Position numbers and translations under genes: made by a program. Shown here one piece after another: positions 43,860 to 47,008 of a DNA stretch of 64,000 nucleotides. The notes under the pieces are model-generated. The model was not told the DNA's origin, did no database searches, and saw only the letters and a program-made list of their open reading frames with translations. Origin of the DNA: Halobaculum marinum. Its GTDB lineage: Archaea; Halobacteriota; Halobacteria; Halobacteriales; Haloferacaceae. Positions within the stretch are counted from its first letter, which is position 1, and the number at the start of each line of letters is the position of its first letter. Location of the stretch: the NCBI RefSeq assembly GCF_029338555.1, contig NZ_CP119989.1, forward strand, positions 992,001 through 1,056,000, read 5' to 3'.

Positions 43860-43957
43860 CCGGCGGGACCACCGACGCCGACGCGAACGCTCGCCGACGC
43901 CGTCGGTTTTGAGTCTGACACAGGTTTATCACCCCCGTCGCGAAACGGACCCAAGCA

Positions 43958-44653
43958 ATGCTCGAAGACGGACTCAGTTACCCACTCGCGGGTGATTCGG
44001 CGCTCGGACGCATCGTGATCGGCGGACTCCTCGGCCTGCTCAGTTTCCTGGTGATCCCTGGAATTCTCCTGTTCGGGTACCTCGTGCGCGTCCTCGAAGG
44101 GACCGCCCGGGGCGAGGAGACACCACCCGCGTTCGACGACTGGGGCGAGATGCTGGTCGACGGTCTCAAAGGGCTCGCCGTCACGCTCGCGTACGCGTTC
44201 ATCCCGATGGTGCTGTTGAGCGTCACCATCGGGACGGCGATTCTCGGGGCGGGCAGTGGCTCCAACGCGGGGTCGGTCCTCGGCGGGATCGGACTCCTGG
44301 GCGCGTTCGTCAGCCTGTTGGTGATGGTCGTGATCTACTACCTCGTCCCGGCGGCGCTCACGAACATGGCCGTGGAGGACTCGTTGGCCGCGGCGTTCGA
44401 CTTCGAGACGCTGAAAGTCTCGCTGCTCAGTGCCGACTACCTCGTCGCCTGGCTGATTCCGTTCGCCATCGGCCTGGTGTTGAACGTCGTGACGGTGTTC
44501 CTCGTGACGATCACGTTCGGGATCGGTGGGCTGGTCGTCCCGTTCATCCAGTTCTACGCGCAGGTCGCCATCTTCTACATGTTCGGTCGGGCGTACTGGA
44601 ACGTGCAGCAGGCCGCCGCCGGCGCCACCACGGAGCACGCCAGGGTGGCGTGA
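43958..44653 (+). CDS. DUF4013 membrane protein
   Basis: A 231-residue protein with five or six helices. The pattern GYLVRVLEGTARGEETPPAFDDWGEMLVDGLK between helices 1 and 2 is typical of DUF4013 in haloarchaea and methanogens (positions about 45-75). No function is known. CAGGTTTATC near 43922 is a likely promoter. Confidence 0.85.
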   Translation: MLEDGLSYPLAGDSALGRIVIGGLLGLLSFLVIPGILLFGYLVRVLEGTARGEETPPAFDDWGEMLVDGLKGLAVTLAYAFIPMVLLSVTIGTAILGAGSGSNAGSVLGGIGLLGAFVSLLVMVVIYYLVPAALTNMAVEDSLAAAFDFETLKVSLLSADYLVAWLIPFAIGLVLNVVTVFLVTITFGIGGLVVPFIQFYAQVAIFYMFGRAYWNVQQAAAGATTEHARVA

Positions 44654-44687
44654 CTGTGGCTGACGTGTCAGTGAGATAGCCAGACCG

Positions 44688-44734
44688 CCGTCCGACGGCC
44701 GTCCGACGGGGCGGAAGGTATTTGCGTCGGACGG
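44688..44734. promoter_or_regulatory. Promoter with three CCGTC-n-GACGG palindromes
   Basis: CCGTCCGACGG occurs twice in perfect tandem (44688-44698 and 44699-44709). A third copy, GCGTCGGACGG with one mismatch, lies at 44724-44734. The TATA-like GGTATTTG (44717-44724) lies between the second and third copies, 25-30 bases before the ATG at 44750. The copies therefore flank the site of initiation, the layout of a repressor or autoregulator site. Confidence 0.6.
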
Positions 44735-44749
44735 AGCGATGTACCGGCG

Positions 44750-47008
44750 ATGGACGGCGAAACAATCGACACGGTGACCGGGTGGGAGTCCGAGCCGCTC
44801 TCGGGGGGGATCGACGGGCTCCGTACCCTGCAGTCCCGCGAGTTCACGGGGGCGGTCACCGAGGGACACGCGTGGCTGTTCATGTTGAACGGCCGGATCG
44901 TCGGCGTCTTCGAGGGGTCGATCGACTCCTTCGCCGACGCAGATGGGACAGCCTACGCGGCGCCCGACCCCTCGTTCCCGCTGTTGTACGCGATGCGGGA
45001 GACGGGCGGCGAGACGAAGGCGCGCTACTACACGAACGACACGGCCCTCTCGGCGGCCGACGCGAAGCTCTCCTCCGGGAAGTTCACCGGCTACATCGAG
45101 CTGTCGGAGAACGTGCTCTCGGGCGACTACTACGCCGTCTACTACGGCGGCAGGCGCCTCGCGTGCGCGTTCGTCGGCACGGGCCAGCAGAAACAGGTGC
45201 TCACCGGCGACGACGCGTTCGCGGCCGCCGACGACGAGGTCGGCATCTACGAGGTCGTCGACGTCGACATCGACGTGGTCGAACTCCCGGGGGCGGACGC
45301 CCCCGACGCAGCCGACGAGGCGGCGTCGGCAGCCGCCGCCGACGCGGCTATCGCGGACGCGGAGCCAGCGTCGGTCGACGACGACGCGACCGACGACGAC
45401 GCGACCGACGGCGACGCCACCGAGGGCGGTGCCGAGGCGATCACCTTCGGCGGGGCAGCCGCCGACGACGGTGGCTCGACCGACGCCACGGATCCGGTCG
45501 ACGCGACCGACGACGCCGACGCGGCGGTCGCCGGCGCCGAGGCCGACGCGAGCGACGCGACGCCGGATCCCGACCCGGAGACGCACGCCGCGAGCGACAC
45601 GAGCGACGCGACCCCGTCGCCCGACGAATCGCCTGCCTCGACTGAGCCGACGCCGGGTGCGTCCGCCGCCCAACGCGCCGCCTCGGAGTCGTCGACGCCG
45701 ACGCCCGAGTCGACCGACGACGGCGACGACGGCGACGACCCGAAGACGGACGCCAACGGCGACCCGTTCTCGGCGGAGGAACAGTGGCGCGAGACGCGCG
45801 CCATCCCGTCGTTGGACCCCGGACGGTCCGCCACGCCCGACCGACAGGGAGCCGCGAACAACGGCACCGCGGGTGCACGAGCGCGGCGACGCTCGCGAGA
45901 GGACGCCACCGACAGTACGCAACGCGGCGGGACAGCGGACACGACCCCCGCTCGGTCGGACGCCGGACGGGCCGACGCGCGTCGCTCGGCTGGGGCGGCG
46001 ACCCGCGAGGGAGCCGGCGACGGAGCGGCGAACACCGGCGCCACCGCCGAGGAGGTGGCGACCGTCCGCGCAGAGCGCGACCGGGCCGTAGAGGCGTTGC
46101 GCGACGCCCGCGAGCGGCTCGACGCCGGCGAGGACGAACTCAACCGACTCCGGGAAGAGAACGACCGGCTCACCGCTCGCGTAGACGAACTGGAGTCGGA
46201 GCTCGCCGACGCCCGGACGGAACTGGAGGCGGCCCGCTCGCGCGCCGAGGCGGCGGAGGCGTCCGGCGACGGCTCGACCGGGTCGCCGAGCCAGACGGTG
46301 CCGGCCGACCGCGCGCTCGCCGGGACGAACCTGTTCGTCCGGTACGACTCGAAGGGCGGCGCGACGCTTGAGAAGGCCCACGCCGGCGGCGCCACCCGCT
46401 CGGACGTGAACGACAACCTCCGGCTGGAGGTCCACACCGACTTCGAGAGCGAGGACGCCGCCGTCGACGGCCAGCCCTTCCGAGAGTACCTCGGCGACAC
46501 CATCGAGTACGGCTTCGTCGAGTGGGTCGTCAGAGAGCTACTGTACGAGATCCAGAGCACGAACAACGAGTCGGCGCTCCGTGACCTGTTCGACGCCATC
46601 CCAGAAGTCGACCGCGCGGAGCTGAACGGCGCGGTGACGCTGGACGACGATGAGGGCGCCAGCGAACACAGTTTCGACGTCGTGTTGCGCGACCGCATGG
46701 GCAACCCGCTGTTGGTGGCGGACGTGACCGAGGGTCGCGACGCCACGACGGAGTCGATGCTCGACGGACTCGTGGGCGACGCCAGCGCCGTCGCCGACGC
46801 CGACGAGCACCTCGCGGCGGGGTTCTACGTCACCGCGTCGTTCTTCGACCCCGGCGCCTTGGAGGCGGCCGCCGACGCCACCGGCGGCGGCCTCCTCTCG
46901 CGCGGCAAGCGCAAGAGCTTCGTGAAGCTCTCGCGCAAGCAGGGGTTCCACCTCTGTCTGGTCGAGTCGCGCGACGGGGAGTTCCACGTGAACGTCCCGG
47001 AACTGTAG
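44750..47008 (+). CDS. Large acidic coiled-coil protein of unknown function
   Basis: A 752-residue soluble protein in four parts. Residues 1-165 are a compact domain (WLFMLNGRIVGVFEG, GDYYAVYYGGRRLACAFVG). Residues 170-430 are a very acidic linker with repeats such as DDDATDDDATDGDAT. Residues 432-504 form a coiled coil (LREENDRLTARVDELESEL). Residues 526-752 form a second domain with FVRYDSKGGATLEKAHAGG and SFDVVLRDRMGNPLLVADV, which recalls a nuclease-like fold with altered catalytic residues. I recognise it as a haloarchaeal type but not its function. Its promoter has three palindromes. Confidence 0.75.
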   Translation: MDGETIDTVTGWESEPLSGGIDGLRTLQSREFTGAVTEGHAWLFMLNGRIVGVFEGSIDSFADADGTAYAAPDPSFPLLYAMRETGGETKARYYTNDTALSAADAKLSSGKFTGYIELSENVLSGDYYAVYYGGRRLACAFVGTGQQKQVLTGDDAFAAADDEVGIYEVVDVDIDVVELPGADAPDAADEAASAAAADAAIADAEPASVDDDATDDDATDGDATEGGAEAITFGGAAADDGGSTDATDPVDATDDADAAVAGAEADASDATPDPDPETHAASDTSDATPSPDESPASTEPTPGASAAQRAASESSTPTPESTDDGDDGDDPKTDANGDPFSAEEQWRETRAIPSLDPGRSATPDRQGAANNGTAGARARRRSREDATDSTQRGGTADTTPARSDAGRADARRSAGAATREGAGDGAANTGATAEEVATVRAERDRAVEALRDARERLDAGEDELNRLREENDRLTARVDELESELADARTELEAARSRAEAAEASGDGSTGSPSQTVPADRALAGTNLFVRYDSKGGATLEKAHAGGATRSDVNDNLRLEVHTDFESEDAAVDGQPFREYLGDTIEYGFVEWVVRELLYEIQSTNNESALRDLFDAIPEVDRAELNGAVTLDDDEGASEHSFDVVLRDRMGNPLLVADVTEGRDATTESMLDGLVGDASAVADADEHLAAGFYVTASFFDPGALEAAADATGGGLLSRGKRKSFVKLSRKQGFHLCLVESRDGEFHVNVPEL

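Follow-up and report, generated by a model that had tools for sequence, protein, structure and literature searches.

What is the palindromic site and where does it lie?

What is a cluster of near-identical palindromes doing around a single promoter in a haloarchaeon, and which protein might read it? The question arises in our window, that is, the whole stretch of 64,000 nucleotides of Halobaculum marinum DNA that was analysed, in which CCGTCCGACGG stands twice in tandem (44688-44698 and 44699-44709), both copies free of mismatches as a sequence-only reading had claimed, and in which GCGTCGGACGG, with one mismatch, occupies 44724-44734. That reading took CCGTC-n-GACGG as the unit. The outer CC and GG are not retained in most orthologues, however, and the unit is therefore the smaller GTCNGAC, a 7-bp palindrome. 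The features of the locus are these.

44679..44685, no strand: weak upstream box GCCAGAC, in 11-bp register with box 1, with which it forms a one-mismatch pair
44690..44696, no strand: box 1, GTCCGAC, which opens the pair; all 11 genus genomes have either GTCCGAC or GTCGGAC here
44701..44707, no strand: box 2, GTCCGAC, spaced 11 bp from box 1; 10 of the 11 genomes of the genus have an exact GTCSGAC, and G008 has GTCCGAT
44712..44723, plus strand: promoter elements CGGAAGG (BRE-like) and TATTT (TATA-like), shared with minor differences by most orthologues, whether they belong to the genus or not
44726..44732, no strand: box 3, GTCGGAC, exact in 7 of 11 genus genomes
44750..47008, plus strand: the gene under the site, 752 aa, with a conserved N-terminal part, a low-complexity middle, a short coiled coil and a C-terminal DUF7527

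Boxes 1 and 2 make up the paired unit GTCNGAC-N4-GTCNGAC (44690-44707), and the TATA-like site follows 11 bp downstream. The weak fourth box extends the 11-bp register in the window and is not constant among orthologues, and in the genus genomes without an exact box 3 its place is taken by GTGGGAC (two genomes), ATCGGAC (one) or GTCGCAC (one).

By what is generally known of archaeal promoters, the TATTT at 44719-44723 leads one to expect a transcription start near 44747. With the start placed 26 nt after the TATA centre, the pair falls at about -48, which is an estimate, since the start is itself inferred from the TATA box. An expected start near 44747 also puts the third copy between the TATA box and the start, so that the near-copy claimed downstream of the TATA box is indeed there, with its one mismatch, but lies upstream of the expected start and not at it. 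A sigma-70 promoter or terminator reading of the site was dropped, as no such site was found.

Frequency alone does not set the 11-mer apart: the window holds two exact copies against a shuffle mean of 1.30, and 37 of 100 shuffles hold two or more, which is chance level, while copies with up to one mismatch are rarer than in shuffles (7 against 22.75). What is non-random is the arrangement of the palindromes. GTCNGAC as such occurs 21 times in the 64 kb of the window, which is rarer than in dinucleotide shuffles (76.7), and codon structure may explain this.

Is the site conserved before its gene?

A search for relatives of the whole protein, some of its query peptides being of low complexity, gave at least one, from Halobaculum saliterrae, and in the alignment with this locus conservation starts near the palindromes, the DNA farther upstream being unrelated. 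The N-terminal part of the DUF7527 gene was then sought in 30 genomes and found in 24, including all 11 of the genus Halobaculum. In 10 of these 11, GTCSGAC-N4-GTCSGAC is exact at -60 to -43 from the ATG, and G008 departs from it by one change. Across the 11, column identity averages 90-98% per 10-bp bin between -60 and -1 of the ATG, and 45-65% per bin between -140 and -61. The centre base of the boxes is C or G throughout the genus orthologues and the spacer varies (GGCC in five, six others once each). The earlier view of a promoter-linked site belonging to the gene at 44750 thus holds up, with the pair kept in all 11 genus genomes.

Most of the 13 loci from outside the genus retain the TATA core, and none of them carries an exact pair; scored by matches among the 12 fixed letters of the pair, with 10 or more counted, the best reaches 10/12, in L042 alone. 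By eye, a single GTCNGAC stands upstream of the TATA box in five of six other loci of the same family (L042, L043, L044, L048 and L051); it is absent from the sixth (L052) and from all seven loci of other families. As far as sequence comparison can establish it, then, the palindrome pair is a real, conserved promoter element before the DUF7527 gene.

What does the gene encode?

The C-terminus of the 752-aa product matches DUF7527 (E 2.8e-109), and residues ~428-506 bear a weak resemblance to a coiled coil. No PDB entry matched a profile of the N-terminal part with an E of 1 or less, structure predictions gave no usable fold (mean pLDDT 32 for the N-terminal 180 aa and 35 for the C-terminal 236 aa), and a literature search for DUF7527 returned no publication. 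A plasmid search for the gene matched solely a Natronorubrum copy, in whose promoter region no pair was seen by eye. In this plasmid record, from Natronorubrum bangense (L017/L018), the homologue lies beside purA, spans the record start and has an apparently frame-disrupted 5' part.

Nearer to hand, a 10/12 pair by hand count (GTCGGTT and GTCTGAC around TTGA) lies at 43902-43919 of the window, followed by a TTTATC site and the start of a DUF4013 gene at 43958, and this neighbouring gene may be under the same control.

Where else does the pair occur?

Across 18 haloarchaeal genomes, GTCNGAC-N4-GTCNGAC has 53 exact places (0 to 6 in each, with at least one in 17 genomes), whereas the reversed pattern has none; many of the 53 are mutually orthologous, so that they represent far fewer than 53 independent events. 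A loose promoter test, which asks for a TATA-like site plus an ORF start at promoter distance downstream, is passed by 41/53 pairs and by 178/7950 random positions, and a strict one, with the TATA 10-16 nt and the start codon 41-47 nt from the pair, by 37/53 and 28/7950, respectively. Some of the misses are, by inspection, still upstream of genes, namely sepF in L074, the PRC gene in L071 and a DUF7139 gene in L090; the pair in L077 lies within a coding region, and no promoter was read at L096, L097 and L099 of G019.

The recurrent targets of exact pairs are the DUF7527 gene (10), genes for a DUF87/HerA-like ATPase (10 loci), for DUF5779 proteins (9 loci in 8 genomes) and for a small lipoprotein (3), and those seen once or twice are genes for SepF, FtsZ1, the PRC-barrel protein, DUF7139 proteins, bactofilin and the HVO_0758 family. 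The sequence-only reading had inferred control specific to the gene at 44750. This we have to give up, because the same pair also stands before ftsZ1, the PRC-barrel gene, cdrL and the DUF5779 and HerA-like genes, and the control is therefore not peculiar to the DUF7527 gene.

The 3.5-Mb genome of H. marinum itself has four exact pairs and none of the reversed pattern, and with up to one mismatch the count is 31 against 5. Beyond the exact four, the one-mismatch pairs lie mostly, by inspection, in coding DNA; the promoter-like ones precede the PRC gene (L114), cdrL (L123) and a PAS-domain gene (L109), or belong to L104/L105 and L110. By eye, the same PAS-domain gene follows a pair in H. marinum (11/12) and in G008 (L085, exact). 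The exact 11-mer CCGTCNGACGG was dropped as a motif: in the genome-wide promoter search proposed for it, only 4 of 25 places are followed, by a loose test, by a TATA-like site plus an ORF start, and two of these 4 are the window pair, so that it does not behave as a promoter motif. The ends of the chromosome contig (G000:C1) duplicate each other at 99.8-99.9% identity, ~2.88 Mb apart (L001/L027, L002/L028 and L101/L124), which slightly inflates the genome counts, and the 25 places become 23 if the duplicate is counted once. A single CCGTCAGACGG (L022, near 1391, minus strand) also stands before a gene whose product, judged by eye, starts like a MinD/ParA ATPase, MPTIYAVASVKGGVG. In a literature search on the motif letters, none of the matches listed concerned Haloferax.

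Which regulator might read the pair?

The targets direct attention to CdrS. According to the accessible part of the Haloferax volcanii study (Liao et al. 2021, PMC8406309), ChIP-seq of CdrS gave 18 sites with a symmetric motif, which at 15 of the 18 lies 41-110 nt upstream of the transcription start; ftsZ1 (-50), dacZ (-47) and a PRC-domain protein (-72) are among the targets, and sepF is reported to go down after cdrS is repressed. The motif is symmetric, as in our window, where the estimated -48 would fall within that range, and orthologues of ftsZ1 and the PRC gene carry the pair; the likeness is one of symmetry, targets and estimated position. In so far as the target table of that report is available (PMC8406309), it does not name DUF7527, DUF5779 or HerA-like proteins, but it also contains hypothetical proteins, a few of which may be identical with them.

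When the promoters of division genes are scored in the same way (background of 10/12 or better, 0.31% of 2279 window stretches with 28 placements each), ftsZ1 reaches at least 10/12 in 20 of 24 genomes, always at -63 to -67 from the ATG, and falls short in L138 (9), L139 (8), L150 (7) and L148 (5, start uncertain). The PRC-barrel promoters do so in 13 of 24 genomes (11 of 11 in the genus and 2 of 13 outside it). G019, the source of both queries, was picked for having the motif there and is not independent; without it the counts are 19/23 for ftsZ1 and 12/23 for the PRC gene. For dacZ, 3 of the 22 promoters examined score 11/12 or better, and the 11 genus loci, including that of H. marinum, score 8-9.

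In H. marinum, cdrS lies between cdrL and ftsZ2, in the order cdrL, cdrS, ftsZ2. CdrS and CdrL alike have a match to RHH_1, to which CdrL adds CdrL_M and DZR. The cdrL promoter holds an 11/12 pair just before the TATA-like site at both loci found (G000 and G008). The cdrS promoters examined carry a different, though related, inverted pair, GTAAGAC-N4/5-GTCTTAC, in six of seven loci (among L123 and L153-L157) and no GTCNGAC pairs; the GTCCGAC-N4-GTCCGAC of the window differs from it, so that the window site is not of the cdrS-ftsZ2 promoter type. What is accessible of the ChIP-seq study of CdrL in Halobacterium salinarum (Darnell et al. 2020, PMC7439475) gives the cdrS-ftsZ2 promoter as the only site, and the GTAAGAC/GTCTTAC boxes are possibly the CdrL site, an assignment that fits this result. 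Between that promoter (PMC7439475) and ours the likeness, judged on the same partial source, lies in ribbon-helix-helix division regulators and in paired palindromic boxes before the TATA box.

The same pair standing before cell-division genes means that the DUF7527 gene is probably controlled jointly with them, and we consider it likely that the window pair is the operator of a ribbon-helix-helix cell-division regulator, with the DUF7527 gene coexpressed with division genes. CdrS is the most likely candidate for the binder.

There are, of course, other ways to read the site. A GC-rich genome might hold such palindromes by chance, or they might form a hairpin or serve the gene upstream as a terminator; a reading of this kind, without regulatory role, would suit the chance frequency of the 11-mer in the window. 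Yet all 11 genus genomes have the pair where the upstream DNA differs, its distance to the TATA box is fixed (37/53 against 28/7950) and no terminator-like site was found, so that we give this explanation almost no credence. A regulator unrelated to CdrS and not yet described might instead read GTCNGAC pairs and share several promoters with CdrS by coincidence, an idea left room by a likeness to the CdrS motif that is one of symmetry, targets and estimated position rather than of letters, and by dacZ, which fits poorly in the genus; the coincidence would have to extend to both ftsZ1 and the PRC gene, at positions resembling the published ones, and we think it very improbable.

A binder of the same fold seems unlikely as well, though it deserves a hearing. 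CdrL is likewise a ribbon-helix-helix protein with the pair in its own promoter at both loci found, and small ribbon-helix-helix-like proteins adjoin exact pairs in L069 and L091 (the L091 product has no Pfam match), so that one of these, and not CdrS, might act at the DUF7527 promoter. Against CdrL stands the single site at the cdrS-ftsZ2 promoter in the available part of the Hbt. salinarum data (PMC7439475), where the boxes in six of seven loci are GTAAGAC/GTCTTAC, and the GTCNGAC pair tracks the published targets of CdrS and not the CdrL site.

How might it work?

For ribbon-helix-helix dimers, tandem boxes at a spacing of one turn are the favoured arrangement. The operators of bacterial proteins of this fold such as Arc and MetJ, made of short palindromic or near-palindromic tandem boxes about one helical turn apart and bound cooperatively by dimers, resemble the window pair; such sites are mostly those of bacterial or phage repressors, whereas the window pair sits upstream of an archaeal BRE/TATA promoter. 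A literature search on tandem ribbon-helix-helix operators found nothing.

With CdrS as the candidate, its dimers would sit next to each other on boxes 1 and 2, which are 11 bp or one helical turn apart. Bound there, immediately upstream of the BRE and the TATA box, they may help the transcription machinery to assemble, and the DUF7527 gene would then be expressed jointly with ftsZ1, cdrL and the division gene for the PRC-barrel protein. Box 3, where polymerase would load, could either add occupancy or limit expression at high levels of the regulator. The effect on the DUF7527 gene is probably activation, by analogy with ftsZ1 of H. volcanii, whose level falls after cdrS repression, from which the authors, in the text available, argue that CdrS may activate it (PMC8406309).

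What does this mean for haloarchaeal biology?

The site is most likely an operator of the CdrS type and would then add one more member to a kind of regulation already known. What is gained is that the motif is made explicit, its geometry being fixed, and that a DUF7527 coiled-coil gene is assigned to a probable division regulon. It is a tentative thought, and on balance a rather doubtful one, that the DUF7527, DUF5779 and HerA-like proteins are unrecognised parts of cell division or chromosome handling that the Halobaculum lineage has brought under the control of CdrS, as it has ftsZ1 and the PRC-barrel division protein. A readable operator, GTCNGAC-N4-GTCNGAC some 11-15 bp before the TATA box, is now at hand for this probable haloarchaeal cell-division regulon, and since it can be read, the sequence by itself suffices to draw up a list of candidate members of the regulon. 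Uncharacterised conserved proteins, the DUF7527 protein among them, thereby become candidates for roles in division or chromosome handling.
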